Origin: Salinivenus sp.
GTDB lineage: Bacteria > Bacteroidota > Rhodothermia > Rhodothermales > Salinibacteraceae
Direction: 5' to 3'
Length of the DNA: 44,770 nucleotides
NCBI GenBank assembly: GCA_018609755.1
Contig: JAHENZ010000043.1
Span: 1 to 44,770 of the forward strand
Shown here: in pieces, positions 400 through 20,343 of the stretch
How the letters are laid out: each line of letters starts with the position of its first letter
Position numbering within the stretch: the first letter of the stretch is position 1
Notes under the pieces: generated by a model
The model's database searches: none
What the model was told of the DNA's origin: nothing
Seen by the model: the letters and a program-made list of their open reading frames with translations, nothing else
Position numbers and translations under genes: made by a program

Positions 400-1545
400 A
401 TGCCCGTTGGCTCTCCCTCGGACGGTTCCATTCCGCTCGCCCGGCCGTCGGTCTCGGCGAACGCCAAGGCGCGCGTCCAAAAGGTTCTGGACTCGTCCCG
501 CCTGTCTCGGGGGCCGTATCTGGAGCGGTTTGAGGAAAAGATGGCGGATCGGTGCGGCACGCGCCACGCGGTGGCGGTCAGCAGTGGCACCGCCGCGCTC
601 CACTGCATCGTCCGGGCGCTGGACCTGGAGCCGGGAGCCGAGGTGCTTACCCCCCCGTTCAGCTTCGTTGCCTCCACGAACGTCCTGCTCTACGAAGCCC
701 TCACGCCCACCTTCGTCGACATCGACCCGCACACCTATAACATCGACGTCGAGCGGATCGAAGAGCAGATCACGTCTCGGACGGAGGCGATCCTGGCGGT
801 GGACGTGTTCGGTCTCCCTGCCAACTGGCCCGCTCTCACTCAGCTGGCCGACACGCACGACCTGTCGCTCATTGACGATTCCTGCGAGGCCCTCGGCGCC
901 ACGATTGCCGACCGGCCCCTCGGCGCCTGGGGGGACGCCGCCTCGTTCGGGTTCTACCCCAACAAACAAATCACGACGGGCGAAGGCGGATGTATCACGA
1001 CGGATCGCGACGACCTGGCCCGGATTTGCCGCTCCCTTCGCAATCAAGGCCGATCCGACGACGGGCAAATGCGCCACCCGCGCCTGGGCTACAACTACCG
1101 CCTGGACGAGCTCTCTGCGGCCCTGGGGTGCGCTCAGCTCGACCGCCTCGACGAGATGCTCGACCAGCGGGCCGCCGTCGCCGACGCCTACTGGGACGCC
1201 CTTGCCCCTCTCGCCGATGACCTTCACCGCCCCTCCGCGTCAACGTCGGACGGGACGCGAAGCTGGTTCGTCTACGTCGTCCGTCTTCGGGATCACTTCG
1301 ACGAACGTGATCGGGACCGCGTGATGGAGCACTTGCAGTCCAACGGCATTGGGTGCGCCCCGTATTTTCCGTCCATCCACCTCCAGCCGTACCATCGGGA
1401 CCGGCTGGGGCATACGCCGGGGGACTTCCCCGTGTGCGAGCACGTATCAGATCGCACGCTTGCGCTGCCCTTTTTCGGCACCCTTTCTGCGGACGAGATC
1501 ACCCAAGTGGCCCACGCCCTGAAAGATGCCCTCTCTTCCCTGTAG
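400..1545 (+). CDS. DegT/DnrJ/EryC1/StrS-family sugar aminotransferase (PglE/WbpE/PorR-like)
   Basis: This 381-residue enzyme is a fold-type I PLP aminotransferase that moves an amino group, normally from glutamate, to a nucleotide-linked keto-sugar in the cytoplasm. Visible hallmarks are the S-S-G-T-A-A phosphate-binding turn (residues 61-66), the Asp pair before S-C-E-A-L-G (159-160) that contacts the PLP ring nitrogen, and Y-P-N-K-Q-I-T-T-G-E-G-G with the Schiff-base lysine at 189. Length is normal for the family. It heads an operon with a phosphoglycosyl transferase and a CapD-type dehydratase, which would supply the 4-keto substrate. That context points to a 4-amino sugar for a surface glycan, although 3-amino products (WbpE type) cannot be excluded by eye. 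Confidence 0.93.
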   Translation: MPVGSPSDGSIPLARPSVSANAKARVQKVLDSSRLSRGPYLERFEEKMADRCGTRHAVAVSSGTAALHCIVRALDLEPGAEVLTPPFSFVASTNVLLYEALTPTFVDIDPHTYNIDVERIEEQITSRTEAILAVDVFGLPANWPALTQLADTHDLSLIDDSCEALGATIADRPLGAWGDAASFGFYPNKQITTGEGGCITTDRDDLARICRSLRNQGRSDDGQMRHPRLGYNYRLDELSAALGCAQLDRLDEMLDQRAAVADAYWDALAPLADDLHRPSASTSDGTRSWFVYVVRLRDHFDERDRDRVMEHLQSNGIGCAPYFPSIHLQPYHRDRLGHTPGDFPVCEHVSDRTLALPFFGTLSADEITQVAHALKDALSSL

Positions 1546-1590
1546 AACTGCGTCTCTCCCGTGCTGCCGTCTTCCACTCCATACCCAGTC

Positions 1591-2187
1591 ATGAAGCGTC
1601 TGATGGACATTGTCGGGGCAGCGGGACTTCTCCTCGGAAGCTCGCCCCTTCTGGCCCTTACGGCACTGGCCATCTGGCTGGAGGACGGGGGCCCGGTCTT
1701 TTTCACCCAGATGCGTGCGGGAAAGAACGGAGATCCGTTCCGGATCGTGAAATTTCGCACCCTCGAAACAGGGCCAAAAGACCCAACCCGCCCGTCCGAC
1801 CACGCAACACGGATTGGCACCTTTCTTCGACGGTGGGCAATTGATGAGCTCCCTCAGTTGTGGAACGTTTTATGTGGGGAAATGAGTCTCGTGGGACCGC
1901 GGCCGCCCCTGCCGAGTCAGGTCGAGAAATATTCTTCTCAGGAGCGTAGACGCCTGAAGGTGCGTCCCGGCCTGACCGGGTGGGCACAAATTCACGGACG
2001 AAATGCACTGCCGTGGTCCGATCGGATCGCGCTTGACGTGTGGTACGTCCAGAATCGAAGTCTCACGCTCGATCTCCGAATTCTCCTACGCACCCCTGCG
2101 GTGCTTCTTTCTCACACTGGAGTAAGCGGTCCGAATGGCCGAAATCCTCGCCTTCGCCCGAGTGATTCCAACCGCCCGTCTTCATGA
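1591..2187 (+). CDS. bacterial sugar transferase (phosphoglycosyl transferase, PglC/WcaJ type)
   Basis: A 198-residue monotopic phosphoglycosyl transferase that moves a sugar-1-phosphate from a UDP-sugar onto undecaprenyl phosphate at the inner membrane, the first committed step of a lipid-linked glycan. An N-terminal hydrophobic re-entrant helix (residues 7-29) follows a basic start. The family signatures are present: F-R-I-V-K-F-R-T, I-D-E-L-P-Q-L-W-N-V with the catalytic Asp-Glu pair at 85-86, S-L-V-G-P-R-P, and R-P-G-L-T-G-W-A-Q. The ATG at 1591 is preferred over an in-frame GTG at 1561 because it gives the canonical basic-hydrophobic N-terminus. It is a short PglC-sized form without the extra membrane domain of WcaJ. 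The last codons overlap the next gene as ATGA. Confidence 0.93.
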   Translation: MKRLMDIVGAAGLLLGSSPLLALTALAIWLEDGGPVFFTQMRAGKNGDPFRIVKFRTLETGPKDPTRPSDHATRIGTFLRRWAIDELPQLWNVLCGEMSLVGPRPPLPSQVEKYSSQERRRLKVRPGLTGWAQIHGRNALPWSDRIALDVWYVQNRSLTLDLRILLRTPAVLLSHTGVSGPNGRNPRLRPSDSNRPSS

Positions 2188-3152
2188 ATGTACTCCTTAC
2201 TAGTGCGGGTCGTCGTACGTCGCTCGCACAGGCATTCCAGTCTGCCGTCGAAACGAGGGGAGGACAAGTCTGGGCTGGAGATCTGGATCCGCTGGCTGCG
2301 ACGCTTCAAGTTGCCGATGAGAGTGTGGTCCTCCCTCCCGTCGACAGCCCTGAGTACGTTCCGATGCTGGTGGAGCACGTCCGGACCCATGACATTGATC
2401 TTCTCGTGCCCTTGATCGATACCGAACTCGGCATTCTCGCCGAGGCTCGCGAACAATTTCAGGAAGCAGGGTGCCACCTCCTCGTGTCCCAGGAGTCCCT
2501 GCTCAACCTTGCGCTCGACAAGTGGTCGTCACTTCAGCGGCTTTCCCGTGCCGACATTCGCACCCCGGCCACGTGGCTTCCCAACCAGTCCACTCCAAAT
2601 GACTGGCCCGACCCCGTATTCGTCAAGCCGCGGTGGGGAAGTGCGAGCCGGAATGCGCGGCAGATGTCCAGAGAGGACGCTGCTCGGGCCGTGGCTGCCC
2701 TCGACACTCCCGTCGTGCAAGAGGTCATCGATGCCTCCGAAATCACAGTCGATGCCCTCTTTGACCTCGACGGAACGCTGATCCACTACGTCCCTCGCCT
2801 TCGGATCCGAACCAAAGCCGGGGAGTCGATCCAGGGACGAACGCTCCCCGACGACGAATGGGCGCCGTGGCTCCGTCGCGTCCTGCGAACGATTGGAGAC
2901 CTGGGCGCCCGAGGCCCGGTCACCGTACAGGCCTTCCGCACAGAGCCCGAACCTACCTTTTCCGAAATTAACCCACGGTTTGGAGGAGGATTTCCGCTAT
3001 CCCATGCCGCCGGCGCACGCTACCCGGACTGGATTCTCCAAATGTGTGCTGGCGCCTCCCTCTCCCCTCGCTTGGGCCACTATACCGAAGGCCTCTGCAT
3101 GACCCGCGCCTACACGGAGTGGTTCGTCGAGGCCACCACATTAGACAACTAA
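2184..3152 (+). CDS. ATP-grasp ligase-like protein (PylC/carbamoyl-phosphate-synthase-like)
   Basis: This 322-residue protein starts M-N-V-L-L-T-S-A-G-R-R with a pre-ATP-grasp Rossmann-like half, followed by the D-K-W and V-F-V-K-P-R-W-G-S-A-S nucleotide-binding segments and a C-terminal E-I-N-P-R-F-G-G-G-F-P metal/ATP-binding motif. ATP-grasp enzymes activate a carboxylate as acyl phosphate and join it to an amine or similar nucleophile. The start codon overlaps the stop of the phosphoglycosyl transferase (ATGA), implying translational coupling. Related proteins are often seen in capsule and O-antigen loci, without an assigned substrate as far as I know. Here it could acylate the amino group made by the upstream aminotransferase; that is inference. 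No separate acetyltransferase lies in this operon. Confidence 0.82.
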   Translation: MNVLLTSAGRRTSLAQAFQSAVETRGGQVWAGDLDPLAATLQVADESVVLPPVDSPEYVPMLVEHVRTHDIDLLVPLIDTELGILAEAREQFQEAGCHLLVSQESLLNLALDKWSSLQRLSRADIRTPATWLPNQSTPNDWPDPVFVKPRWGSASRNARQMSREDAARAVAALDTPVVQEVIDASEITVDALFDLDGTLIHYVPRLRIRTKAGESIQGRTLPDDEWAPWLRRVLRTIGDLGARGPVTVQAFRTEPEPTFSEINPRFGGGFPLSHAAGARYPDWILQMCAGASLSPRLGHYTEGLCMTRAYTEWFVEATTLDN

Positions 3153-3180
3153 TCCCCTTCGGTTTTCTGGATACAACTGG

Positions 3181-4392
3181 GTGACCTTCCCTGTGCACGT
3201 CGCTGTTTTCCTCCAATACTACCACACGCCGGACTGCCCCACGGCCGCCCGGCCCTATGCGCTCGTCAAGCGCCTGGCGCAGACCCACGACGTGACGGTC
3301 ATTACGACCCGCACCTGGGAGACCAAACGACTCAGCAATAACGTTCCCTGGGTCCCCTCGGGGGTCAATCTCATCCGTTTCGACGTGCCCTACGAAAACT
3401 CGATGGCGCCCCTCGAACGCCTTCGCGCATTCCTCTCCTACGCGGGCCGGGCCGTTGCGTACGGCCTCCAGATGCCCGCTCCCGACCTGATCATCGGCTC
3501 CTCGACGCCCCTAACGGCTGCTATGGCCGCAGGACTCGTGGCCTCTCTTCGCGGCATTCCATGGATCTTTGAGGTCCGCGACCTCTGGCCCGACTTCCCA
3601 ATCCAGATGGGGGCTCTTCCAAACTTTGGTTTGCATCGTCTCCTGCGCAACCTTGAGACTGTACTCTATCGAAGTGCGGCCCACGTCGTTACGCTTTCCG
3701 ACGACATGGAACAGCACGTCCGCACGGCTGCCCCCGCCGCGGACACAACAACACTGGAGTACGGCGCCGACCTGCAACTCGTTGACGACATCACGGAAAA
3801 CCAACGGTCGAGGTTGCGGCAAAAATACGGCCTCGATCGCCGGAAGCTCGTTCTCTACGCCGGAACGTTCGGTCGGGCCAACACCATTCCCACGCTGCTC
3901 GACGCGGCTAAGCAATTCGCCCACCGCTCCGACGTACTCTTTGCGTTTGCCGGACGGGGCTACTACGAATCCGCTGTCCAGCGAACCGCAGATCGACACG
4001 ATCACATTCGGGTCGTCGACCCTCTTCCCTATCCGGATACGCTGGCGCTCTTTTCTCTGGCGGACGTTTCACTGGTCTCCTTCCTCGATCGCCCCGTACT
4101 GACAACCAACTCCCCTGGGAAACTCTACGATAGCCTTGCCACCGGGACGCCCGTCGTTATCACCAATCCCGGGTGGACCAAACGGCTCGTGGAGCAACAC
4201 GAATGTGGTTGGTACGTCCCGCCCGAATCGCCGAATCGCCTCGCACACCAGCTTCAACACGTCTTTGAGACCCCGAATGATCTGGAAAAAGCAGCAGCTA
4301 ATGCTCGAATAACTGCACGTCAGCGGTTTGATCGGGCGGAGCTGATGGACCAATACGCTCGTCTCGTTGATAACGTGAAGGACGCGTCGTGA
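3181..4392 (+). CDS. glycosyltransferase family 4 (WbuB-like)
   Basis: A 403-residue GT-B fold retaining glycosyltransferase. The N-terminal half carries F-E-V-R-D-L-W-P, typical of the WbuB-like GT4 subgroup that adds amino sugars to lipid-linked intermediates. The C-terminal half has Y-A-G-T-F-G-R-A-N and K-L-Y-D-S-L-A-T-G-T-P-V-V, the donor-binding region. Translation appears to begin at a GTG 28 bases after the ATP-grasp stop; no in-frame ATG lies close upstream. Its position after the phosphoglycosyl transferase suggests it adds the second sugar to the undecaprenyl-linked primer. Donor and linkage cannot be read from the sequence. Confidence 0.9.
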   Translation: MTFPVHVAVFLQYYHTPDCPTAARPYALVKRLAQTHDVTVITTRTWETKRLSNNVPWVPSGVNLIRFDVPYENSMAPLERLRAFLSYAGRAVAYGLQMPAPDLIIGSSTPLTAAMAAGLVASLRGIPWIFEVRDLWPDFPIQMGALPNFGLHRLLRNLETVLYRSAAHVVTLSDDMEQHVRTAAPAADTTTLEYGADLQLVDDITENQRSRLRQKYGLDRRKLVLYAGTFGRANTIPTLLDAAKQFAHRSDVLFAFAGRGYYESAVQRTADRHDHIRVVDPLPYPDTLALFSLADVSLVSFLDRPVLTTNSPGKLYDSLATGTPVVITNPGWTKRLVEQHECGWYVPPESPNRLAHQLQHVFETPNDLEKAAANARITARQRFDRAELMDQYARLVDNVKDAS

Positions 4393-4451
4393 TTTTATAC
4401 GGCACGTTGCCCCTTCCCCCTTCGATTCTCAGATCTCTCGGTCATTGACTG

Positions 4452-6011
4452 ATGTCTCGCCCCTTCAACCACATCCGCTCCGTGCTCGCTGGAAAGACCG
4501 TTGGAGGGATGTCCATTTTCCTTCTGCTTCCAGACCTGCTCGTCCTCTATCTCGGGCTGCTGGTAGGCCACAAAGTTCGCTTCGGAAACTGGCTCCTTCC
4601 GCACATCATGGAGTGGAGCCTGGCGGCCTTTATTATCCTGGGCGTGTACCTGCTCGCCCTCGTCTCCAGCGGGGTCTACACGACGGATCCGCGAGACATG
4701 CACCTGGACGAGTTTATCGACGTAGGGGGGCGCCTCGTCGGCGCCTGGGTCCTCTCCATCGCCGTCACCTACGTAACGGATCCGGCCAACCTGCCCCCTC
4801 GGGGCATGATGGCGACACATGGACTCGTCACCCTCGTGGGCGTGCTTGGGCTCCGGGCGGTCCTCCGACGGGTCCTCGAATATGTGAGCGGCTCCCCGGA
4901 TTCGGACCCGTCGCTCTCCTCTCCCCCTACCGTTCAGCTGAGCGACCTGATTTCTCGCAACCCGATCACCATCGATCGATCGGCCCTCCGCGATTTTTTG
5001 TCCGACCGGACGGTGCTCGTCACGGGCGCCGGGGGATCCATCGGTTCCGAACTAAGTGCTCAGCTGCTCGACCTCAATCCGTTCCGTCTCGTGCTGGTGG
5101 ACGTGAGCGAGCACAACCTCTACCAGCTCGAACATTCGCTCCGGTCCCGTTCCTACGACGGCGACCTCGAATTCTGCATTGCGGACGTGCGTGACAAAAC
5201 GGTGATCAACGGCCTCATGGCCCGCGAACAGCCGGACGTCGTACTCCACACTGCTGCCTACAAGCACGTGCCGCTCATGGAGCGGCATCCGGCGGAGGCC
5301 TTCCGCAACAACACCATGGCCACCGTCCACCTCCTCCGCCTCTCGGAGCAACACAACGTAGAGCAGTTCACGTTCGTCTCGACCGACAAAGCCGTCGAGC
5401 CCACCAGCGTCCTTGGGGCCACGAAGCAGTTGGCCGAGTGGTACGTCCACACGGCCCCGTCGTCCCTGCAGAGCACGACGGTTCGCTTCGGCAACGTGTT
5501 TGGCAGTCAGGGAAGTGTGATCCCGCGCTTCGAGGAGCGACTGGCGGCGGGCGATCCGCTCCCGGTGACCCACCCGGACATGGAGCGGTATTTCATGACG
5601 AGCGGAGAGGCCTGCCAGCTCATCCTGCAAACGCTGCTGTTCAGTGACCATCCCATCCACATCCTGAAGATGGGCGACCCGGTGCGGATTCAGTGGCTGG
5701 CCGAGCAATTGATCAAGCGATACTACCCCCACGTGGACCCCGAGTCGATGATTGAGTTCGTGGGCCGCCGCCCGGGCGAAAAACTCAGTGAACAGCTCAC
5801 GCACGTCAGCGAAACGGTCCATTCTACGGCCCACTCAAGCATCCTTGGGCTTGACGCCCCAGCCCCCTACAGCCGAAACGTACTCGAAGACTACTTCCGC
5901 CAACTGCAGGCACTGTGCGATCCGACCCGGGGATCGCGGGAACAGCTCCGGCAGCGCCTGCTGAGTGGGGCTCCTGAAACGTCCTTCTCGTCCTCGACGT
6001 CGGCCTCTTGA
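4452..6011 (+). CDS. membrane-bound nucleotide-sugar 4,6-dehydratase (CapD/PglF family), shortened form
   Basis: A 519-residue extended SDR enzyme with an N-terminal membrane region (hydrophobic segments roughly at residues 20-40, 55-72, 95-108 and 122-138). The NAD-binding motif V-T-G-A-G-G-S-I-G is at 190-198, then H-T-A-A-Y-K-H-V-P (266-274), S-T-D-K-A-V-E-P (310-317) and G-A-T-K with the catalytic lysine at 325. The family converts UDP-GlcNAc to a 4-keto-6-deoxy sugar, the substrate for DegT aminotransferases such as the one at 400. Usual members are about 600-660 residues with a Rossmann-like domain between membrane part and SDR; here the membrane part runs almost directly into the SDR. 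The residue normally Met in the active-site V-M-G-A-T-K is Leu (321). Confidence 0.9.
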   Translation: MSRPFNHIRSVLAGKTVGGMSIFLLLPDLLVLYLGLLVGHKVRFGNWLLPHIMEWSLAAFIILGVYLLALVSSGVYTTDPRDMHLDEFIDVGGRLVGAWVLSIAVTYVTDPANLPPRGMMATHGLVTLVGVLGLRAVLRRVLEYVSGSPDSDPSLSSPPTVQLSDLISRNPITIDRSALRDFLSDRTVLVTGAGGSIGSELSAQLLDLNPFRLVLVDVSEHNLYQLEHSLRSRSYDGDLEFCIADVRDKTVINGLMAREQPDVVLHTAAYKHVPLMERHPAEAFRNNTMATVHLLRLSEQHNVEQFTFVSTDKAVEPTSVLGATKQLAEWYVHTAPSSLQSTTVRFGNVFGSQGSVIPRFEERLAAGDPLPVTHPDMERYFMTSGEACQLILQTLLFSDHPIHILKMGDPVRIQWLAEQLIKRYYPHVDPESMIEFVGRRPGEKLSEQLTHVSETVHSTAHSSILGLDAPAPYSRNVLEDYFRQLQALCDPTRGSREQLRQRLLSGAPETSFSSSTSAS

Positions 6012-6230
6012 CCTCAATCCGCTTTCCCCCGTACGAACCGGAGCGCAATCCCCACCGTAACAGCCGTCTACGCTTTCCTGTCATAGTCGTCCTGCCTCCT
6101 CGCTTCCCTTCGCACTCCAGTCCTTCCGCCCCGACCTGCCGTCACATACGTTCTGCTCTCTCACGTAGGGTTCCCGCGTGCCGACCCGAACGGCGTACGC
6201 GTTCCTCCCGAGCACTCTGTTTGCAGTTTT

Positions 6231-9200
6231 ATGCTTCGCTCCCTGTTGCTCGCCGTCCTGGCGTACAGTCTCGTCCTTGTCCCCGGTCTTGCTCGGGGCC
6301 AAGTAACCACCACGTATGACGCCTCCTGGTACGACCCGGACGCCCCCTACGTCCGCCTTGCCGTCGCCGAAGACGGGGTGTACCGCGTAACGGGGGAAGC
6401 GCTTCAGTCGGCGTTGCCCGAGGGAACGACGCTCGACGACATTCCTCGCTCTACGATGCGCTTATACGAAAACGGCCGGGAGATCCCAATCCACCTGAGC
6501 GGCGCATCGGGCGGATCGTTTGACTCCTCGGATGCACTTCACTTCGTGGGGCACCGAAATCGCGGCACCGACGAGCAGTGGGCGTACGAGACCCCGACGG
6601 ACCAGAGCAGCCCGTACCGGAGCCTCTATACAGATACGACCCACTACTGGCTCACGTGGGGTGGGGAAACGACGGGACGCCGTTACTCGTCTCCCTCGTT
6701 CGAATCGACGACGCCCACGTCCACCCTCCGCGACACCGTCCACCTGGAGCAAGAAAACCGGTACTATTACGGACGTCCCTACGAGAGCGGCGATTCCTTC
6801 TACACCGAGTCGGAGGGCTACTACTGGCGTCGCTTCTCCCACAACGACACCGGGACGATTCAATCCACCTATACCCTCCCGGTGTCGCGGCACACCAACT
6901 CTTCAGACTCACTACATTTGTCGGTCCGGCTCGACGCCGAGACGAACTCGTGCCACCGGGTGCGGGTCGAGGCAGAGCTCCAGCAGAGTGGGGGCGACGT
7001 TGCCTTTGAGTCGCTCAGCACCGTGGAATGGCAGGGGTACCAGCGACAAACGGTAGAGGCAGCCGTCGCCCAGAATCGGATTCCCGACGACCTGCGTGTG
7101 CGCCTCGTCTCTATCAACGAGAATTTCTCCGATTCCAACTGCCCCGATCCCGGTAGCACGCCGAACTACGTCCTCCTCGACTACCTGGAAGCCAATTACG
7201 TCCGGCGCCTTGCCGCCGATGGAGATACGCAACGCTTCGTGGCCCCGGCCGGCACCAATTACACCTTCTCCCTGAGCGGCCATTCGAGCGACAGTGTGGA
7301 GGTATACAATCCGGCCGACGCTCGACGGTATCAAGTGTCCGCCGCCAGCGGCCCAGCGAACGTTTCCGTCTCCCCGTCGAACGCGAACACGCCGTTTTGG
7401 GCCGTCGGCCAGCAGTCGTACAAATCGCCCGCGTCGCTGCAGCCCGACGAATCGAGCAACTGGTCCGTGGCCTCGGCGCATGGGGCCGACTACGTCATCC
7501 TGACCACCGAGGCCCTGCAGTCCTCCGCGCAGAGCCTGGCGGAGTATCGGCGCACGCAGAGCGGCTACGAGGTGGCGGTCGTCGAGGTCCAGAACGTGTT
7601 CGACGAGTTCGACTACGGCCGTCCCACGCCCATTGCCATCCGTCGATTTGCTCGCACCACCCAAGAATGGACCACGCCGCCGCAGTTCCTCACCATTTTC
7701 GCCGACGCCGAGTTTCCCATCGATCCGGGCCTCTCGCGCCCCCGGGCCGACTGGAGTGTGCCGGCGTTCGGGTACTCGGTCTCCGACGGCTGGTACGCCA
7801 TGCAGGCCACCGGCCCAAACGACTGGACGGAATTCCTGGCGATTGGCCGCATTCCGGTTCGAAATAATGCGCAGGGAGAGCTCTTCGTCGACAAGCTGTC
7901 GGCCTACGAGAATTCCGAGCCGGCGGCCTGGCAGAAACGCATGCTACTCATGGCCGGGGGCACAAGCGAAAGCGAGCAAAACTCCCTGCAGTTCTACTCG
8001 AACCAGTGGGGCGAGCTGGCCACCGGCACGCCCGACACGATTTATGCTGCGGGGATGGACACCTTGCGCTACTACAAGCAAGTAGACGATGCCCTCGACA
8101 CGAGCTTCCAGGACTCTCTTTCCGCGGATCTTGAACGCGGAACTGGCTGGCTGAGTTATTTCGGCCACTCAGCGGCACGGACGTGGGAGATCGTGACCGA
8201 TCCTCCACGCGAGTGGGACAATTCGGGGAAACTCCCGGTGATTCTGTCACTCGGCTGCAAAACGGGATCCTACGCAGGCGATCAATTCGGCGAGCGCGGC
8301 GCTCCCGCTCTCGGCGAGCAGTTTGTCGTCGGCTCTCTCTCTGATGACGGCACTCCGGTGGAAGGCGCTCGGAATGGCGGGATTGCCCACTGGGGAACGT
8401 CAGCCCTCGGGAATCGGCTCCCCTCGGCTCGCCTCGGCGATGAGTTGACCCAACGTGTGTTCACGGACACGATGCGAGTGCTCGGGACAGCCATCCAACA
8501 GGCGAAGGCCGCCATCGCCCGCGACTTTGGATCGAGCAGTCTCTATCAGCGCCACCTGCTTACGTACGGCCTCCTTGGGGACCCGGCGACCCGTATCTCT
8601 CTCCCAGATCAGCCAGAGCTGAGCGTCCAGCCTCGGAACATTCAGACCTCCCCCACACGGCCGATTCTCTCCGAACCGCTCACTGTGGACGTATCGGTCG
8701 ATAACTTCGGTCTCGTCCCCTCCGATAGCGTCAACCTATCGTTCCGCTGGCAACGCCCGGATGGATCTCAGGTGCAGCGGAGTCAGAACGTGCCGCGCTT
8801 CCGCTTGAGCCACACCACTTCCTTCAACCTAGACACAGACAACCGCGCCGTGGGGACGAACCAGTTCCAAGCGACGGTTGACCCAGCGAACCAGTACGAC
8901 GAAGTGGACGAGACAAATAATACCGCGAGTCAGGAGCAGGTGGTCTTCGGCACCGGCCTCATTCTCATATCCCCTTCTCCTGAAGGAGCAGTACCCACTC
9001 AGCGCCCAATCCTTCGCACCAATCTCCTCCGACAGACCTCAGGGGACGCCACCGTCGAGATTCAAATTGATTCCGTGTCGTCGTTCGACTCTCCTGGCCT
9101 ACAGGAAACGACCCAAGAGACGGGCGACCTGGTCGTCGATTGGACACCGCCCCGAGACCTGCGCACCAACCAGACCTACTTCTGGCGTGCCCGTCCCGTC

Positions 9201-11255
9201 ACGGACGAAGAAAGTGCCTGGCGTGAGAGCCAGTTCACCGTCAAATCGGCAGAGACCTCCCTGGAATGGTTTCAAACGGACCAGCTCTTCCAGAACAACA
9301 CGCACACCCGTCTCCGTCCAATGTCTGGAACGTGGTCGTTCGGTAATTACGCCGTGTCCGTGCGAGCCGTCTCGGACCGACCAGGAGCCACCAACGGGGC
9401 GTCGGGATTTGTCGTGAACACGACCCAGCGATATTTGAGACTCGCCCTGGGCTTTGGCGTGCTGGTGCTGGATGGCGTGTCGGGGGCCGTAAAAGCTGTC
9501 GACACCTTTCCAACGTACGATCTGCCAGATGACCTGGAAGGGGAGAACGGCGATCAGCAGCAGGCCATCAACGCACTGCGCAGCTTCTTGGACACGAATG
9601 TCGACGAGGGAGACTACGTGTTCGTTCGCACACGCCACTTTGCCCGACAGAGTAGCGCGACCATCCCGAGCGAGGTAAAAGACCTCTTCCGAAATCTCGG
9701 CTCGTCCTCCTCGGTCGACCACACAACTGCTATCGACACCCTCACGTACGACCACCTGTGGATTCTGGAAGCACGCAAGGGCGATCCGTCGGCCACAAAG
9801 GAGCTGGTTTCTCCCCCCAGCGAGTCCGATGACGTGCGAGGCATTCTCCGGGAGTCAGAGCTCTCGTTTCGCCACGCCTCGGGACGGACCCTCACTCAGC
9901 GGATCGGGCCATCTCAATCCTGGGACCACCTGGAGTGGGACGTGCAAACCGAGGGATCCGAGGAAATCCAGGTTGACGTGCTTGCGGCTCAGGACTCCTC
10001 CGTCCTGCGTTCGACACAGGCCGGTGTCTCCGGCGAACTCAGTCTCTCGTCCATTGAGGCGGACACCCATCCGTATCTTCTGTTTCGGGCAACCCTCACG
10101 GACTCGACCGAGCGCACTGCCCCACAGCTTCGGGAGTGGGGGGCCTCATTCACCCCTGTGCCGGAGCTTTCGGTCGACCCCTCCTCCCTGGCACGTCTGC
10201 CGGATACCCTGCGTCTGGGGGAGACCCTTTCCCCGACCGTGTCGGTTCGGCATCTGAGCGGCCCTCCTGCATCCAACGTACGGCTAGAAGCCACCCTCAC
10301 GGACCCGTCGAACCAGACCACCCCGGTACGAACGGACACCCTCGGCACACTGGAGATCGATAGTACTGCGTCCGTTGACTTCGACGTTTCGACCGACCAG
10401 CGTCAGGGCACCAATACTCTGACGGTCACGACCACGAGCGATGCGTCTCCCGAGCGGGTGTCGTTCAACAACACCGCGCTCCACACCTTTCGGGTGCAGC
10501 CCGATGATCGCCCGCCCTCGCTCAAAGTACTGGCCGAGGGACGCGAGCTCCCGCCCACCGCCGATCCCATTCAGAACCTCCAGGATCCCAGCCTGCCGTT
10601 CGTCTCCACGAACCCCACGCTCGAAATTCAGATCCAGGACGACAATCCGTACCTTCGGCTCCAGGACACCTCGTACGTCGAGGTGTACCTCAAAGAGGGC
10701 CTGCCGTCCGACGGGCCGGACCTAATTTCCAATTACCGACGCATCCCCTTCTCCGGACCGAGCCTCACGTTTAACCCCGCAGAGGAGGAGGCGGAAAACA
10801 CCGCGCGTGTTCTCTTCGAACCGACACTTCCCGCCGAGGACCAGACCTACACCCTGAAGGTGGAAGCGCAGGACGCCCAGGGCAATGAGGGAGAGCCGTA
10901 TACTGTGACCTTTCGGGTGCAACAACAACAGGTCATCGAGGACCTGTATCCGTACCCGAATCCGATGAGCGATCACACGCAGTTCTCGTTCCTCATTCGG
11001 GGGGGCAACACCCGTCCCAGCGATTTCCGTCTCCGCATCTATACACTCAGCGGACGCCTCGTTCGCGAGTTCACGGGCGCGGAGGCAAACGACGGCGCGG
11101 GCCTCCGGACCACAGGCTGGAACCATCTCACTTGGGACGGACGGGATGCCGATGGGGACCGCGTGGCCACGGGCGTCTATCTGTACCGCGTGCGGATGGA
11201 GGGAGCAAACGGAACCTTCGAGGGGGATGTCGAGAAGGTGGTCGTCATCCGATAA
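6231..11255 (+). CDS. porU: T9SS C25-family signal peptidase/sortase, long PorU-like protein
   Basis: A 1674-residue secreted protein with a signal peptide (residues 1 to about 23, cleaved near A-R-G-Q). The gingipain-type C25 peptidase domain spans about 420-790, with catalytic His646 in Y-F-G-H-S-A and Cys676 in S-L-G-C-K-T-G; the 30-residue spacing fits gingipains. L-L-G-D-P-A-T-R-I closes the domain. After it come a CARDB-like beta domain (794-895), further beta-rich modules, a second CARDB-like segment (about 1311-1425), and a FlgD-like C-terminal domain (about 1570-1674) with Y-P-N-P-M and G-V-Y-L-Y-R-V. In T9SS, PorU cleaves the cargo C-terminal signal and links cargo to a surface glycolipid. 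P. gingivalis PorU is about 1160 residues, so this is a long (PorU2-like) variant. It sits 219 bases after the glycan operon. Confidence 0.85.
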   Translation: MLRSLLLAVLAYSLVLVPGLARGQVTTTYDASWYDPDAPYVRLAVAEDGVYRVTGEALQSALPEGTTLDDIPRSTMRLYENGREIPIHLSGASGGSFDSSDALHFVGHRNRGTDEQWAYETPTDQSSPYRSLYTDTTHYWLTWGGETTGRRYSSPSFESTTPTSTLRDTVHLEQENRYYYGRPYESGDSFYTESEGYYWRRFSHNDTGTIQSTYTLPVSRHTNSSDSLHLSVRLDAETNSCHRVRVEAELQQSGGDVAFESLSTVEWQGYQRQTVEAAVAQNRIPDDLRVRLVSINENFSDSNCPDPGSTPNYVLLDYLEANYVRRLAADGDTQRFVAPAGTNYTFSLSGHSSDSVEVYNPADARRYQVSAASGPANVSVSPSNANTPFWAVGQQSYKSPASLQPDESSNWSVASAHGADYVILTTEALQSSAQSLAEYRRTQSGYEVAVVEVQNVFDEFDYGRPTPIAIRRFARTTQEWTTPPQFLTIFADAEFPIDPGLSRPRADWSVPAFGYSVSDGWYAMQATGPNDWTEFLAIGRIPVRNNAQGELFVDKLSAYENSEPAAWQKRMLLMAGGTSESEQNSLQFYSNQWGELATGTPDTIYAAGMDTLRYYKQVDDALDTSFQDSLSADLERGTGWLSYFGHSAARTWEIVTDPPREWDNSGKLPVILSLGCKTGSYAGDQFGERGAPALGEQFVVGSLSDDGTPVEGARNGGIAHWGTSALGNRLPSARLGDELTQRVFTDTMRVLGTAIQQAKAAIARDFGSSSLYQRHLLTYGLLGDPATRISLPDQPELSVQPRNIQTSPTRPILSEPLTVDVSVDNFGLVPSDSVNLSFRWQRPDGSQVQRSQNVPRFRLSHTTSFNLDTDNRAVGTNQFQATVDPANQYDEVDETNNTASQEQVVFGTGLILISPSPEGAVPTQRPILRTNLLRQTSGDATVEIQIDSVSSFDSPGLQETTQETGDLVVDWTPPRDLRTNQTYFWRARPVTDEESAWRESQFTVKSAETSLEWFQTDQLFQNNTHTRLRPMSGTWSFGNYAVSVRAVSDRPGATNGASGFVVNTTQRYLRLALGFGVLVLDGVSGAVKAVDTFPTYDLPDDLEGENGDQQQAINALRSFLDTNVDEGDYVFVRTRHFARQSSATIPSEVKDLFRNLGSSSSVDHTTAIDTLTYDHLWILEARKGDPSATKELVSPPSESDDVRGILRESELSFRHASGRTLTQRIGPSQSWDHLEWDVQTEGSEEIQVDVLAAQDSSVLRSTQAGVSGELSLSSIEADTHPYLLFRATLTDSTERTAPQLREWGASFTPVPELSVDPSSLARLPDTLRLGETLSPTVSVRHLSGPPASNVRLEATLTDPSNQTTPVRTDTLGTLEIDSTASVDFDVSTDQRQGTNTLTVTTTSDASPERVSFNNTALHTFRVQPDDRPPSLKVLAEGRELPPTADPIQNLQDPSLPFVSTNPTLEIQIQDDNPYLRLQDTSYVEVYLKEGLPSDGPDLISNYRRIPFSGPSLTFNPAEEEAENTARVLFEPTLPAEDQTYTLKVEAQDAQGNEGEPYTVTFRVQQQQVIEDLYPYPNPMSDHTQFSFLIRGGNTRPSDFRLRIYTLSGRLVREFTGAEANDGAGLRTTGWNHLTWDGRDADGDRVATGVYLYRVRMEGANGTFEGDVEKVVVIR

Positions 11256-11284: not shown

Positions 11285-12658
11285 CTATCCGAACGGGGAG
11301 TACGCGTAGGTAAAGTACGCATACTCAAGCTGCATGAGAAGAAACACTCCGATGGTAGCGTAAAGATATTTCTTCGACTGAAGCACTCGCCGCCCGTGCC
11401 AGACGTCCCAGAGCACCGTTCCCCCAGCGCCGGCGAACGGGACCAGAAGCGCAACGACGGTATAATGGTAGGTCCCGGCAGAAAACGCAATCCAGTACGG
11501 AAGTTGGTAGCCCAGAATGAGAAGGCCTATACGTTTTGTCTCGAAGGAGCGCCAGCCCCCCTCCAGGAGCCCGACGAGGACGAGAAGCATCATCGCGGCG
11601 TAGCCCCCAGCCTCCAGAGCCAACAATCCAAGCAGGGGCCCCATTCCGAGATTATAGTTAATCTGGATTCGGCGGGAGGTCACGTAGTCAAACCCCCAGA
11701 ATTCCCGAATGCGATTGAGCGTACGAAGGAGCGTTTCTCCAGGATGGGCCGCGACGAACTGGGCAACTGCGCCAAGCATTGCTGTCTGGGGATTGTCCTT
11801 CCGGCGAAAGGAGTCTAGGGACTCTTGTACCTCCAGAGGAAGCTCACCGGGCGAGCGTGATGCGAGGTGATTGGTCTTATACAACGGGGTGTGTGGATTA
11901 TTGCCCAGATAGAGGTTGTATCGGCTACTCGTCGCAATCGTAGCTCCTCCTCCGCGGGAGGCGTTGTAGGAAAGAACTGGACCAACAATTGCCCCCAGTA
12001 AAAGCAGGCCTACTCCCCCTCCATACAGGAGGGTTCTCACTGACCTCTCGGTCGAGCAGCGGAGTGCACGATAGAGCGCAACACTTCCCCCTGCTCCCCC
12101 CATTGCCACGAGACTAAGAAGCGATGGCCGAGTGAGCACCCCTACGCCGAGGGCCGCTCCGGCACCGGCCAGCCACGGCCACCACTCCTGCCTCAGTCCC
12201 TTCAGGATGCAAATTACTGCGGTGAGGAGAGCCGTCATTTCAACTGGTTGAGACACCACCTGGCTCGTCATCATGATGCTCGGAGGGTAGAAGACCATCA
12301 TCCATCCTGCCCAACGAGCCCCCCGCTCCCCTACCACCAGACGGGCTAACCGCTCCACCAGAAGGACGTTCGCCGTGCTGACCGTGATGGCGAAGAGCCG
12401 CGCCGTCCACACTCCCGTGCCGAATGTGCCGTACCACAACGCCAAGAGGTACGGCAAGCCCGGAGGCCAATAGTACGGTTCGGTGCCGGGAAACGACCGG
12501 AGGAGCTCCCTGGCAACCGCGTCGTACGAGCCAGCATCGGACATCAAGGGCATGTCGCCCACAAGTCCGAGTGCGAAGACGAGCCGTATACAAAGAGCAA
12601 TGCCTCCAAGAATAAATACGCGTCCGGGCCCCTTCGCAGTAGCGTGATCCCAGTTCAT
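11285..12658 (-). CDS. GT39/ArnT-type polytopic membrane glycosyltransferase
   Basis: A 457-residue integral membrane protein with about ten hydrophobic segments. The first periplasmic loop carries S-D-A-G-S-Y-D-A-V-A-R-E-L, the acidic loop typical of GT-C enzymes, and W-P-P-G-L-P-Y-L-L follows, as in the GT39 family. Such enzymes use polyprenyl-phosphate sugars and transfer them at the periplasmic face of the inner membrane. It is the last gene of the minus-strand glycan operon, 54 bases after another GT-C gene, and converges with the PorU-like gene with only 29 bases between stops. Sugar and acceptor are unknown; a protein or glycan acceptor are both possible. Confidence 0.78.
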   Translation of the reverse strand: MNWDHATAKGPGRVFILGGIALCIRLVFALGLVGDMPLMSDAGSYDAVARELLRSFPGTEPYYWPPGLPYLLALWYGTFGTGVWTARLFAITVSTANVLLVERLARLVVGERGARWAGWMMVFYPPSIMMTSQVVSQPVEMTALLTAVICILKGLRQEWWPWLAGAGAALGVGVLTRPSLLSLVAMGGAGGSVALYRALRCSTERSVRTLLYGGGVGLLLLGAIVGPVLSYNASRGGGATIATSSRYNLYLGNNPHTPLYKTNHLASRSPGELPLEVQESLDSFRRKDNPQTAMLGAVAQFVAAHPGETLLRTLNRIREFWGFDYVTSRRIQINYNLGMGPLLGLLALEAGGYAAMMLLVLVGLLEGGWRSFETKRIGLLILGYQLPYWIAFSAGTYHYTVVALLVPFAGAGGTVLWDVWHGRRVLQSKKYLYATIGVFLLMQLEYAYFTYAYSPFG

Positions 12659-12712: not shown

Positions 12713-14293
12713 TCAACGCCCCCCGCGTTCTTCGGTGGGCCCCGTCTCCGACACCCGCTCAATGCGCCATCCTTCTTTGCGGAGGTGAAGACGAATTGTG
12801 GAGTCCAGTCCTAAGGGGCAGCGGCCAGAACCGGTGACCAACTGGAGATCGGGGCGCGAGCTGTAATGCTGAACTACGGGCCCCGCAAACCGAAGCGGCA
12901 GGGCTCCGGGCATCCGGTACACCGAGTAGGCCGTCGTGTCCGTCGGTGCATCCAGAACGCAAAGGGTTGCCCCAGTCAGAGCAGTCTTTCCCACTGGAAC
13001 GAGCTGCTTCAAAAGTGACTGGGTGCGCTCCCCGGTGACGTTCATGAGCGTCGCTTTCTGCCGCACCCCGGCAATCTGACTCCCAAGATACACCAGCAGA
13101 AGAACCCCACCTGCAATCCGCCATCCCTGCGGCGCACACCGCCACAACGTGCCCATCCCGATCCCTGCTACCAAACAGAGGGACGGCATGGCCGAGTAGA
13201 CGTACAATTCGCTCACGTCATTCAGCACGAGCACCGGCCCGAGACTCCCGATCGCCACTACGAGAAGCCCGACCGCTACCAATCGGGATCTGCTACGATA
13301 CACGCCATAGGCCACGACTGAGATGAGAAGAACACTTCCGAAGAGGACCCCTCCGAGCTTTCCCCACTGGGCAGTTTGGGCCCACTGCGCGACACTCGCG
13401 GTGGACACCGGACTTGTGGCGGCTGCCCCAAAGAGCGCAGCATTTCGGAAGAGGTTCATTCCAATGTGAAGCTGGTACGCCTCTGTCCCAAATCCGGGCC
13501 CCATCGAACCAGCTGCAGCTCGTACGAGGAGGTATGCTCCCGCCAGTAGCGCGACGGAAAGACTCCGTGTCCACAGGGAAGCGCTTCCCGATGCGCTTCT
13601 GCCCCCGAAAAGGATACCGGCAGCGGCCCCGTCGACCAGCAGAAGCAGCACCACGAACGCAAACCCTGTCTCCTTGAACAGAAGGGCTGCGCCCAGTGAC
13701 AGAAGCGCGCCCCCGTACGTCAGCACGGAGCGCCTCTCCTGCCGGTCAAAGAGCGACTCTGTGTACCATCGAAGGCTCAAATAGCCAAAGAACGTGCTTG
13801 CAACCTGAGAGAGCGTGTCATTCCCGAGCACGGCAGCGGCATTTGCCTGACTGACTGCCATAAGTGCAGCGGCGATCCCCGACTGCAGCCGGGTGGCCCC
13901 AAGCCATCGTCCCCCTTCGTATACGAGAAGCACCGTCCCCAAATGGAAGACCAGTGTCACCAAATGGACAGGAACCGGATTCATTCCGAAGGCCGACTGC
14001 AAGACGGTCAGAACGGCATTCTGCAGCGGACGATAGAATCCTGTGGTCGGACCCGTCTCCACAAAATGATCCATCCATTCCATCTCCACCGCCGGGAAAT
14101 AGAATTGAAAATCATCGGCATAATAGGGAATGGTAAGCCCCGACGCGTACGTGCCCAGCACGACGACCACGCTTACCGACAGGACCACGACGTAGAAGTC
14201 CCATTCCTCTCCCTGATCTGCCCCATTTCTGAGTGCATTCGGTCCCCGATTCATCGTCGCGGTATGGTTTCTTGCGTCAACTCCGTCCTCCAT
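12713..14293 (-). CDS. polytopic GT-C-like membrane protein
   Basis: A 526-residue protein with roughly eleven hydrophobic segments after a polar N-terminus of about 30 residues. The first loop has Y-Y-A-D-D-F-Q-F-Y with paired Asp, followed by G-F-Y-R-P-L-Q and, further on, L-L-F-K-E-T-G. The D-D-F, Y-R-P-L and K-E-T/G sequence order recurs in TMTC/GT39-like membrane glycosyltransferases. No W-W-D-Y-G motif is present, which argues against an STT3/PglB oligosaccharyltransferase. A polar C-terminal domain (about residues 430-526) probably lies in the periplasm. An ATG at residue 15 is an alternative start. It is adjacent to another GT-C gene, so the two may act at successive steps. Confidence 0.65.
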   Translation of the reverse strand: MEDGVDARNHTATMNRGPNALRNGADQGEEWDFYVVVLSVSVVVVLGTYASGLTIPYYADDFQFYFPAVEMEWMDHFVETGPTTGFYRPLQNAVLTVLQSAFGMNPVPVHLVTLVFHLGTVLLVYEGGRWLGATRLQSGIAAALMAVSQANAAAVLGNDTLSQVASTFFGYLSLRWYTESLFDRQERRSVLTYGGALLSLGAALLFKETGFAFVVLLLLVDGAAAGILFGGRSASGSASLWTRSLSVALLAGAYLLVRAAAGSMGPGFGTEAYQLHIGMNLFRNAALFGAAATSPVSTASVAQWAQTAQWGKLGGVLFGSVLLISVVAYGVYRSRSRLVAVGLLVVAIGSLGPVLVLNDVSELYVYSAMPSLCLVAGIGMGTLWRCAPQGWRIAGGVLLLVYLGSQIAGVRQKATLMNVTGERTQSLLKQLVPVGKTALTGATLCVLDAPTDTTAYSVYRMPGALPLRFAGPVVQHYSSRPDLQLVTGSGRCPLGLDSTIRLHLRKEGWRIERVSETGPTEERGGR

Positions 14294-14353: not shown

Positions 14354-15502
14354 TCAATCCTCAGCGAGGAGATCATCGTAGAGCCGAACGAGGCGTGCTG
14401 CCGTATTCTCCCACTGGTACTCCTTCGCTGCCTTCAAGGCTGCCTCGGACCGTGTCCGATACGCTTCCGGATGCTCTCGCCAGTACCGAATCACGTCGAG
14501 CGCCTGACGAGAATCGCCCGGAGGTACCACCTCTCCACACTCGTGCTCTTCCACGAAGCGCCGCCAGACGGGAAAATCACTGCAGAGAATGGGGAGACCG
14601 TAGTGCAGATACTCGTAAAACTTCGTCGGGATCTTCTCGATCTGATTCGGATGGTCCCTACCCAAGACGATGCCTACGTGAGCCTCATTGTAGTGCTGGA
14701 CGAGCTGCTCCCAGGGGACGTACGTGTCCCATCCCACGCGCTCGATCACGTCGTCAAGATTCTTCCGTCGAATGCGTCGCTCCGCTCGACGACGGGACGC
14801 CTCGACGTAGCACACGCCGACCAATTTGAGACGCGCGTCCAGGTCCCCGGCTTTCATGTGACCGGCCAGATCGATTAGTTCTGAAAGCCCTCGCCCTCCT
14901 CCCTCCCCCATGACGCCCGTGTAGATTGCCCGGATCGGCCCCGAAGTCGGAAGCGAGCGTGGCGCCTGCCCCTCTACCTCCTGCTCTTGCGTTTCCTCAA
15001 CAGGTTTGAAGTGGTTGGCAATCCGCGTCGTCGGCACCCCGGCCGCCTCCGCAATGGACACGTGCGGTGCATTGGCCACCACCACGTGGTCCACCCACCG
15101 GAAGCACCACCGTTCCACTCCTCGAATCAAACGACCAACGATGGGCCCATGCCACCGGTAGTCCTCGTGCATGTCGTAGATGATCCGTCCTCCGGTTCGA
15201 TGCTTGAGGACGTAGGCAAGCGGGATGAGCTCCGGATCGTGAACGTGATAGCAGTCGGCGCTGAGTGAAACAGCCGTCTGGTATACGTTCCACTGAAGGG
15301 GGAGGCGCTGAATCCGACGGTGTACGACCGGCAACGCCCATATCGGAACCCCGTCGTGCACCTCCGAGGACTCATTCTGGGCAATCAAATGAACGTCGTA
15401 CCCGGCATCCCGCAAGGTGCAAAGCTCCTTTCGGAAAATTCTGGGGTCCTGAGGATGATGCACCGTCGTAATGTGCACGGCACGCTGGTCTCGTCTCCGC
15501 AT
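14354..15502 (-). CDS. glycosyltransferase family 4
   Basis: A 382-residue cytoplasmic GT-B enzyme. The N-terminal half has V-H-H-P-Q-D-P-R-I-F-R-K-E and Y-H-V-H-D-P-E-L, a pattern seen in many GT4 proteins of exopolysaccharide loci. The C-terminal half has P-T-K-F-Y-E-Y-L-H-Y-G-L-P-I, the donor-binding region with the conserved Glu. Length is normal. It follows the GT2 gene by 54 bases and precedes the GT-C gene by 60 bases, so it is probably co-transcribed with both. The sugar transferred cannot be deduced. Confidence 0.88.
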   Translation of the reverse strand: MRRRDQRAVHITTVHHPQDPRIFRKELCTLRDAGYDVHLIAQNESSEVHDGVPIWALPVVHRRIQRLPLQWNVYQTAVSLSADCYHVHDPELIPLAYVLKHRTGGRIIYDMHEDYRWHGPIVGRLIRGVERWCFRWVDHVVVANAPHVSIAEAAGVPTTRIANHFKPVEETQEQEVEGQAPRSLPTSGPIRAIYTGVMGEGGGRGLSELIDLAGHMKAGDLDARLKLVGVCYVEASRRRAERRIRRKNLDDVIERVGWDTYVPWEQLVQHYNEAHVGIVLGRDHPNQIEKIPTKFYEYLHYGLPILCSDFPVWRRFVEEHECGEVVPPGDSRQALDVIRYWREHPEAYRTRSEAALKAAKEYQWENTAARLVRLYDDLLAED

Positions 15503-15556: not shown

Positions 15557-16540
15557 TCAGCGGGATTCCGGAAACTGTGCTGGGTCGTAGTACTTTCCCG
15601 AGCGACCCGTTACACCGTGCCAGTACGCTCGCAGGAGCACCGAGAGTCGCAGCCGCTTGTGACTATCGAAGCACAGGACAGCAACAGCGCTCCGTAGAAA
15701 ATGGTACAGTCCCGTCGCATATCCTCCCCATCGCTGCCACGAACTCTCTGCGTGCTTACGTACGATTAAGAGCTTGTTGCGAAGAAGATAGTACCGTCGC
15801 CAGTAGGAGCTGATCGGGCGCTCTCCCCGAAAGCGTGCCAGTAGAGCGGTCGGAACCTCCTTGCTCTTCGAAGCATCGTGATGCACGACGCGACTGTCCC
15901 GCACTAAATACACGTGCCCCCACTGCGAGAGTCGAAGGACATACTCGTTGTCGTCCCCCCAGATAAAAAAGCCTGCCTCGGGCAACCCAACCTCCCGAAC
16001 GGCCTGCGCCCGAACCATTAGCCCCACGAATGTGGCGTACCCAATTTCTGTGACGGGATTCTCACCGTCCACGTCATAATCGTACGTCATACGGAATGGA
16101 TCATACCACCCCACAGAGCCTTTCTGGACCGTTCCATCGGGATTTACCCGTAGTGATGCGAGCCCTGCTGTGCTCTCGTCGAGGTGACATGTCGAAGAAA
16201 AGAGCTGCTCAAGAGCAGTCGCCTGAGGCTCCGCATCGTCGTCCATCACCCAGATCCACTCCACGTCCCGCGACACTGCCTCCTTCATCCCCTCGTGGAA
16301 ACCGCCCGCCCCTCCCCGGTTTTCGTCAAGCACCCGCAGAGTCACCTCCGGAAAGTCAGTCCGCACCATCGCCGCGGTGCCGTCGGCGCTCGCGTTGTCG
16401 ACAACGATAATCTCCGGAATCGGATGCGTCTGGTTCTGGAGCGCCTCCAGGCATTGTCGCAGAAGGGTCTTGCGGTTGTAGGTCACTACGACGGCGGCGA
16501 CCCGCGGCTCGGGAATGGACGTGTTGGCAGAATCTGTCAT
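15557..16540 (-). CDS. glycosyltransferase family 2, GlfT1/rhamnosyltransferase-like
   Basis: A 327-residue GT-A enzyme. It shows V-V-V-T-Y-N-R near the N-terminus, the sugar-nucleotide motif V-V-D-N-A-S, then N-R-G-G-A-G-G-F-H-E-G-M, and W-V-M-D-D-D-A-E-P with the metal-binding acidic cluster. The G-G-A-G-G-F...G-M plus D-D-D arrangement is characteristic of GlfT1-like galactofuranosyltransferases and related rhamnosyltransferases. The ATG at 16540 is chosen because it overlaps the stop of the upstream FAD gene as ATGA and begins the domain correctly; an in-frame start 51 codons earlier would lie inside that gene. A C-terminal tail of about 80 residues is rich in aromatic and basic residues and could associate with membrane. 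Confidence 0.88.
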   Translation of the reverse strand: MTDSANTSIPEPRVAAVVVTYNRKTLLRQCLEALQNQTHPIPEIIVVDNASADGTAAMVRTDFPEVTLRVLDENRGGAGGFHEGMKEAVSRDVEWIWVMDDDAEPQATALEQLFSSTCHLDESTAGLASLRVNPDGTVQKGSVGWYDPFRMTYDYDVDGENPVTEIGYATFVGLMVRAQAVREVGLPEAGFFIWGDDNEYVLRLSQWGHVYLVRDSRVVHHDASKSKEVPTALLARFRGERPISSYWRRYYLLRNKLLIVRKHAESSWQRWGGYATGLYHFLRSAVAVLCFDSHKRLRLSVLLRAYWHGVTGRSGKYYDPAQFPESR

Positions 16541-19401: not shown

Positions 19402-20343
19402 TTGCCCCCTGAATTTCTCCTCCTTGGTGCTGCTCGGTCTGGCACAACGGCCCTCTATGCGTTTTTAGACCAGCATCCAGACCTCTTCATGTGCACCCCA
19501 AAGGAGCCCCACTTTTTTGCCTACGGCGAAGGAAAATTTCACTTTGAAGGCCCAAAAGACAACCAGTTCACTCACTCGTCACTATCGCGCAGAAAGTACG
19601 AAGCGCTCTTTGCAGAAGCACGCCACGACCAGTTGCGTGGGGATGCCTCAACATCGTCACTTTACGTGCCTCGAGCCGCCAGGCGGATCGAGCAGTACGT
19701 CCCCGAAGCGAAGATGATCATTCTACTGCGCAATCCGGTGGACCGTGCGTTCTCAAACTATCTGCTTCTCCTCCGAGACGGACGCGAGCCCTGCAATTCA
19801 TTTCGAGAGGCGCTCGATCGGGAGCCATCGCGCATCAATCAAAACTGGGAGCATGGATGGCATTACCGACGAATGGGCTTCTACTACAATCAAGTCCGCC
19901 GCTTCTACGAACACTTCGATCAGGCACAAATCCGTATTTTCCTCTTCGATAACTTCACCGCGGATCCGGTTTCTATAGCTCAAGACGTATTCTGCTTTCT
20001 AGGCGTCGACGACTCATTCGTACCCGACACCTCCCTCCAACACAACCCCTCAGGATGTCCCCGATCTCGAACCCTGCATTGGCTTCTGCAACTCGCAGGA
20101 GTCGGTGCCCAGATCCGCTCGGTGCTCCCCGATGTTATCGTGGAAATGGTAGGTCACCACGCCGGGTCCTTCATTCAGGGCATACGGCGTTTAAAAAAGA
20201 AAGTCATTCATCACAACCTAGAACGTCCCTCCCTCTCCAGCGCCGTCCGTACTCGTCTTCTAGATGTATACCGCGACGACATCCACCGCCTCGAAGATCT
20301 CATCGACCGCGACCTCTCCCACTGGCTCGACCATCCGGCCTGA
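19402..20343 (+). CDS. PAPS-dependent sulfotransferase
   Basis: A 313-residue sulfotransferase that would move sulfate from PAPS to a hydroxyl or amine of a glycan or lipid. The 5'-phosphosulfate loop is G-A-A-R-S-G-T-T-A-L (residues 8-17) and the 3'-phosphate site is L-L-R-N-P-V-D-R-A-F-S-N-Y (about 109-121). A TAG lies in frame at 19393-19395, so translation must begin at the TTG at 19402 or at a rarer codon; the fold begins at once, so the TTG is favoured. The gene is less GC-rich than its neighbours (29 of 60 at 19861-19920; 27 of 60 at 20161-20220), suggesting recent transfer. Next to a flippase, it probably decorates the surface glycan. Confidence 0.88.
   Translation: MPPEFLLLGAARSGTTALYAFLDQHPDLFMCTPKEPHFFAYGEGKFHFEGPKDNQFTHSSLSRRKYEALFAEARHDQLRGDASTSSLYVPRAARRIEQYVPEAKMIILLRNPVDRAFSNYLLLLRDGREPCNSFREALDREPSRINQNWEHGWHYRRMGFYYNQVRRFYEHFDQAQIRIFLFDNFTADPVSIAQDVFCFLGVDDSFVPDTSLQHNPSGCPRSRTLHWLLQLAGVGAQIRSVLPDVIVEMVGHHAGSFIQGIRRLKKKVIHHNLERPSLSSAVRTRLLDVYRDDIHRLEDLIDRDLSHWLDHPA

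Follow-up and report, generated by a model that had tools for sequence, protein, structure and literature searches.

Among the closest described counterparts of the system considered here is the PorU–PorV–PorQ–PorZ attachment complex of Porphyromonas gingivalis, in which PorZ binds anionic lipopolysaccharide (A-LPS) and works with the sortase PorU (PMC8545088). There, and in Tannerella forsythia, the C-terminal sortase of the type IX secretion system (T9SS) is served by an amino-sugar pathway, Wbp/Vim, whose linking sugar in Porphyromonas, a 3-amino uronic acid, bears serine or glycine (PMC7468200). This linker sugar has been proposed to lie at the far end of the chain, and the wbp and vim genes are, by locus number, scattered over the genome (PMC13086638). 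A C-terminal sorting enzyme encoded in an exopolysaccharide locus is also known from the exosortase/PEP-CTERM loci (PMC7468200), although the exosortase is an unrelated inner-membrane enzyme with an unrelated sorting signal. What is known of the anchors of T9SS cargo comes largely from Porphyromonas, Tannerella and Prevotella. Here we describe a 44,770-nucleotide stretch of DNA (the window), one whole contig (JAHENZ010000043.1) of a 5.0-Mb Salinivenus genome (G000), in which a paralogue of PorU, PorU2, is encoded within a polysaccharide locus. We propose that PorU2 joins cargo bearing a T9SS C-terminal domain (CTD) to the glycan of its own locus, as a separable anchoring module, a proposal that we consider evenly poised. 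Whereas PorU-type sortases are known, PorU2 is known as a database name (NF052324, 'putative type IX secretion system sortase PorU2'); in the open-access literature we found no account of PorU2, of its position among glycan genes, of the ILEI-type domain that it carries or of its disappearance together with a Pgl operon, nor a relevant paper on T9SS in Salinibacter.

The sortase-like protein, of peptidase family C25, and its parts lie as follows:

6231–11255, plus strand: PorU2-type C25 sortase-like protein, 1674 aa (NF052324, 435.7 bits; NF033707, 254 bits; PDB 6za2, PorU)
7491–8594, plus strand: C25 catalytic domain, residues 421–788 (PF01364, 204 bits)
9348–9875, plus strand: ILEI/FAM3 (POMGnT1-stem-like) domain, residues ~1040–1215 (Pfam ILEI, E 9.9e-5; profile and model comparison)
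10953–11252, plus strand: C-terminal type-A T9SS sorting-like domain (TIGR04183, 23.0 bits, a score equal to the cut-off)

A first-pass annotation of the window had described this protein as PorU-like. Its match to the PorU2 model is full-length (profile positions 5–879 of 879; 435.7–436.9 bits) and lies 14 bits under the curated cut-off of 450 bits, and with the PorU model NF033707 it does not reach the cut-off (254 versus 420 bits). The G171 orthologue, which falls in the same clade, scores 472 bits with that PorU2 model. A tree of 61 proteins sets the PorU2 proteins of the order together and apart from canonical PorU, on either side of a branch with 100% support, and the window protein groups with PorU2 members that exceed the cut-off, apart from PorU. 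By sequence, it is thus assigned to the PorU2 paralogue clade and not to canonical PorU. The catalytic His646 (codon 8166–8168) and Cys676 (codon 8256–8258) both align with those of P. gingivalis PorU (6za2) and are invariant in an alignment of 41 PorU2 and 20 PorU proteins; the C-terminal domain likewise aligns with the end of 6za2. The window system therefore resembles the P. gingivalis complex in its C25 fold, its His/Cys pair, its CTD-like C-terminus and the presence of PorV and SprA in the genome. In contrast to PorU, PorU2 belongs to a separate clade, is ~330 aa longer, carries an ILEI-type domain, and lies inside a polysaccharide locus and not beside PorV. The partner proteins differ too. 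PorZ scored over its cut-off in all four tested genomes with canonical PorU (G003, G013, G030 and G180) and was absent from all ten tested genomes of the window's family, whereas PorV was present in all fourteen.

The additional domain of PorU2 is of a sugar-binding type. The Pfam ILEI family (PF15711) reaches 23.2 bits in the window, short of its cut-off of 27, but 65.8, 41.9 and 30.6 bits in loci L050, L047 and L040, respectively (L, G and f numbers are our handles for loci, genomes and families). Comparison with the stem domain of POMGnT1 gave a profile E of 8e-13, and a structural model of the domain (predicted local distance difference test 91.8) superimposed on that stem with Z 16.8 and a root-mean-square deviation of 2.7 over 145 residues at 23% identity. 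The modelled fold is that of the ILEI/FAM3 (ILEI/PANDER) group. This comparison rests on the domain-level match: a Foldseek search with the whole C-terminal half gave complement C5 and macroglobulin as best matches (TM-score <0.2), which we took to reflect strings of Ig-like domains and set aside. A CBM61-like jelly roll (Z 9.9; residues ~1009–1040 and 1216–1310) appears to hold the ILEI domain as an insert, an observation on which we do not rely. All 25 PorU2 proteins examined from the order have the ILEI-type domain; among 16 other PorU2 proteins it is clear in 6, and none of 20 PorU proteins has it. Glycan genes neighbour 30 of the 31 loci of PorU2 with a clear ILEI-type domain and 1 of the 30 made up of PorU and the ten PorU2 with a weak match or none.

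The genes upstream of PorU2 form a compact series on the same strand:

400–1545, plus strand: DegT/DnrJ/EryC1 aminotransferase of C4 (perosamine synthetase/PseC/PglE-like) type (PF01041, 376 bits)
1561–2187, plus strand: small PglC-like phosphoglycosyl transferase (PGT), GTG start (PF02397, 205 bits)
2184–3152, plus strand: PylC-like ATP-grasp ligase (PF21360 and ATP-grasp; PDB 2pn1)
3181–4392, plus strand: GT4-family glycosyltransferase (PF13579/PF00534), kept in most relatives
4452–6011, plus strand: PglF-like membrane UDP-N-acetylglucosamine 4,6-dehydratase, short form, 519 aa (PF02719, Polysacc_synt_2, 294 bits)

Profile searches recovered every gene that the first-pass annotation had named, in the place, order and strand it had given. 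The gaps from position 400 through the C25 gene are 15, −4, 28, 59 and 219 nt; we looked for a consensus promoter or terminator in the 219-nt gap and found neither. The dehydratase matches PglF/WlaL (PDB 5bju) with 218 bits, and the best structural match of the PGT is N,N'-diacetylbacillosaminyl-1-phosphate transferase (8e37). Together with the C4 aminotransferase these make up, by sequence, a Pgl-type set. Since the dehydratase partner would supply a 4-keto-6-deoxy sugar, the predicted product of the pair is a 4-amino-6-deoxy sugar of Pgl type, unlike the 3-amino uronic acid with seryl or glycyl group of the Wbp/Vim pathway. The Pgl/bacillosamine pathway (PglF, PglE, PglD, PglC) is accordingly the nearest structural relative of the dehydratase and PGT, except that the window operon has no PglD/NeuD acetyltransferase and carries the ATP-grasp gene instead. 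In G208, the sister genome, and in other relatives this slot holds a NeuD/PglD-type sugar acetyltransferase (in L053, TIGR03570 at 188 bits, above cut-off). As no ATP-grasp relative was found at the other loci examined, we rejected the idea that loci of this kind all share an ATP-grasp step for adding an amine.

Of 114 genomes of the order (named relatives include Salinivenus iranica and Salinivenus lutea), 38 have a PorU2-class gene and 76 do not. The order aminotransferase–PGT–(acetyltransferase)–GT4–PglF–C25, whose conservation the first-pass annotation had proposed as a check, is indeed kept across several families. It recurs in full, with the acetyltransferase, in f1 and f4, and is shorter or spread out in f36 and f40; other glycosyltransferase or export genes lie beside PorU2 in f3, f35 and f41, and in G203, G204 and G207 the Pgl operon is ~20 kb from PorU2. 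At least two glycan genes lie within 10 kb of PorU2 at 25 of 25 loci of the order, compared with 0 of 20 loci of canonical PorU, the commoner paralogue, which adjoins PorV where checked. Seven sampled genomes hold both paralogues, so the comparison is also one within genomes. In the profile scan, no glycan neighbours were found for the strongest NF052324 members from elsewhere than the order. The glycan profiles were built partly from PorU2 loci themselves, so a negative in other classes is less secure than a positive. Two side observations concern single loci. In G171, a polysaccharide deacetylase-like gene (L067, 15718–16707) directly 3' of PorU2 recalls VimE, a part of the Porphyromonas linker pathway, and L039, from a genome of another class, has two tandem PorU2 genes.

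PorU2 and the Pgl genes also occur together and have been lost together. The short PglF-like gene is present in 27 of the 38 PorU2 genomes and in none of the 76 others (Fisher p ~1e-17, a value inflated by kinship). Salinibacter ruber DSM 13855 (G147, identified by its plasmid, which is 100% identical), of the same genus as the window genome, and its close PorU2-bearing sister G207 are ~96% identical in this region apart from two blocks missing in S. ruber. One (G207 2639291–2649218, 9.9 kb) holds GT4, PorU2, GT4 and GT2 genes, and the other (G207 2663359–2669329, 6.0 kb) the PglF, GT4, NeuD, PGT and aminotransferase genes. The 12.3 kb between them carries trehalose-phosphate genes and others without relation to either block, and S. 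ruber keeps it whole at 96% identity. Both blocks lie outside hypervariable island 2 of S. ruber, mapped at 775936–845933 (PMC2800850). S. ruber retains SprA, PorV and 15 CTD proteins; G207 also has 15, and 11 are orthologous. More generally, the tested genomes of the window's family have one PorU2-class C25 protein or none. S. ruber and G215–G217 have SprA and 15–23 CTD proteins, with PorV in the three tested (G147, G215 and G217), and no C25 protein of any kind was found in these four, giving a T9SS without a recognisable sortase. A 35.5-kb plasmid of S. ruber also bears a T9SS cargo gene with a CTD (G147:C2:6058).

Downstream of PorU2, the window continues as follows:

11285–12658, minus strand: PMT_2-type membrane glycosyltransferase-like protein (PF13231, 37 bits)
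12713–14293, minus strand: 526-aa protein, possibly membrane, with no Pfam/NCBIfam match (Wzy- or GT39-like only as a guess)
14354–15502, minus strand: GT4 glycosyltransferase d3 (PF13579), conserved beside PorU2
15557–16693, minus strand: GT2 glycosyltransferase (PF00535)
16537–17829, minus strand: FAD amine-oxidase-like protein (PF01593)
17972–19327, plus strand: Wzx-type polysaccharide flippase (PF01943)
19402–20343, plus strand: sulfotransferase-like open reading frame (480 bits with a profile of the sulfotransferase at a related PorU2 locus)
28939–31719, plus strand: GH31 protein with CTD (TIGR04183, 28.0 bits)
32586–40421, minus strand: SprA (1690 bits)

Since more glycan genes follow it, the C25 gene lies inside a larger polysaccharide locus and not at its edge. 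The GT4 gene d3 is convergent with PorU2 in most relatives, and the FAD amine-oxidase-like gene recurs at the PorU2 loci L053, L066, L069 and L071. The GH31 cargo and SprA, which the first-pass annotation had placed in the same window, were both found. SprA is ~20–26 kb from PorU2 in the window and in G208, and ~10 kb in G214; the two are on separate contigs in G203, G204 and G206. Contamination of the contig was considered and rejected, because G208, of the same genus, has the same gene order at 65–84% identity, the ATP-grasp gene excepted, with SprA equally ~26 kb away. The assembly as a whole has an estimated contamination of 4.96%. It contains 51 CTD matches, more than twice as many as most genomes of the genus, and a single C25 protein.

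These results are consistent with the following mechanism. The PglF-like dehydratase, C4 aminotransferase and PglC-like PGT, followed by the glycosyltransferases and Wzx, would make a surface polysaccharide, lipid-linked and with a 4-amino-4,6-dideoxy sugar as its first unit. PorU2 would itself be exported by the T9SS and serve as sortase, with Cys676 and His646 forming a thioester with the cargo and releasing its CTD, and an amine on the polysaccharide of the locus would then resolve this thioester. The ILEI-type domain might hold the glycan, as PorZ does for PorU in Porphyromonas. The sequences show the genes, the catalytic pair, the fold of the domain, and the joint presence and loss; from these we infer that PorU2 is exported and active, that the glycan accepts the cargo and where the amine comes from. 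In the window species that amine might come from the ATP-grasp enzyme, if it attached an amino acid to the 4-amino group. The free amine so made would resemble the one on the Porphyromonas linker, but this is a guess, and would be peculiar to this species among the loci seen. In the fullest version of the proposal, which we advance only tentatively, PorU2 is a self-contained sortase that recognises its glycan through a domain of its own. It would anchor T9SS proteins to an exopolysaccharide, or to another glycan that is not LPS, whose genes accompany its own; it would replace PorU–PorZ–A-LPS and could be dropped without loss of secretion, while the ATP-grasp enzyme of the window species would aminoacylate the 4-amino sugar and so supply the acceptor amine.

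Several observations weigh against anchoring of cargo by PorU2 to its own glycan. The POMGnT1 stem binds beta-linked N-acetylglucosamine (GlcNAc) through R129, D179 and R207 (PMC9802357), and in the window their places are taken by L, H and D. The PorU2 proteins of L046–L048 and L051 have all three, and only PorU2 of other classes keep them. Because the contacts are replaced in this order, glycan binding by the window domain is plausible, and its ligand may differ from GlcNAc. A PglC-type PGT would place the amino sugar at the reducing, lipid end, and there it does not stand out as an acceptor; the Porphyromonas linker is proposed to lie at the far end of its chain. Furthermore, G214 and the families f3, f35 and f41 have PorU2 without the PglF-like gene, and the CTD cargo of S. 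ruber persists in a genome that has no C25 protein, which means that secretion of cargo does not require PorU2. The SprA tree of the family, in which G193 has an implausibly long branch, probably from a wrong reading frame, and was not used, contains only two independent co-losses, in the S. ruber lineage and in genus g90. These are too few, and we therefore claim no phylogeny-aware significance. Finally, polysaccharide loci in general turn over fast.

This last point leads to an explanation by co-inheritance, in which surface-structure genes cluster and are exchanged or deleted as cassettes, phage pressure being one possible cause, and sortase and glycan are biochemically unconnected. The large variable polysaccharide islands of S. 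ruber, explained by phage escape (PMC2800850), fit such a scheme, as do the widely varying glycosyltransferase content of PorU2 loci and the small number of losses. It does not readily account for canonical PorU, a surface protein too, being absent from such loci, for two blocks having been lost separately in S. ruber while the DNA between them stayed, or for a sugar-binding-type domain in PorU2 and none in PorU. We regard co-inheritance alone as rather unlikely. Alternatively, PorU2 might be a C25 enzyme, protease or sortase, dedicated to one special class of substrates, such as a glycan-bound surface protein, or might mature polysaccharide-associated proteins, without being the general T9SS sortase. 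Many genomes of the order do hold both PorU and PorU2, and the persistence of 15 CTD proteins in S. ruber after the loss of PorU2 would be expected. However, in the window's family PorU2 is the sole C25 protein beside many CTD proteins, and no special cargo gene is common to PorU2 loci, which makes this explanation improbable in our view.

The first-pass annotation had drawn a literal parallel with P. gingivalis, in which a PorR-like aminotransferase makes an A-LPS-like anchor that is used by PorU. The same broad families, a DegT aminotransferase and a C25 protein, are indeed present. However, the aminotransferase is nearer to perosamine synthetase, its best PDB match, than to the WbpE/PorR type (240 versus 149 bits) and has a PglF partner; the femAB/VimA-like family (TIGR03019) reaches only 68.7 bits against a cut-off of 260, on another contig; PorZ is absent from the tested genomes of the family; and S. 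ruber is reported to lack lipid A/core genes (PMC2800850), so that an LPS anchor looks unavailable in the group and another would be needed. We consider the literal model very improbable. The broader suggestion that anchor and sortase are encoded together fares better, in that the two modules adjoin, co-occur and are co-lost, and the sortase has a glycan-binding-type domain; the parallel with PorR is the part that falls away.

Anchoring by PorU2 would thus tie a sortase paralogue to a specific glycan pathway, and the two are linked here by position, shared presence and shared loss. S. ruber DSM 13855 and the PorU2-bearing G207 form a natural knock-out pair, which makes the question of how T9SS cargo is anchored in these bacteria accessible to mass spectrometry without the need for genetics.

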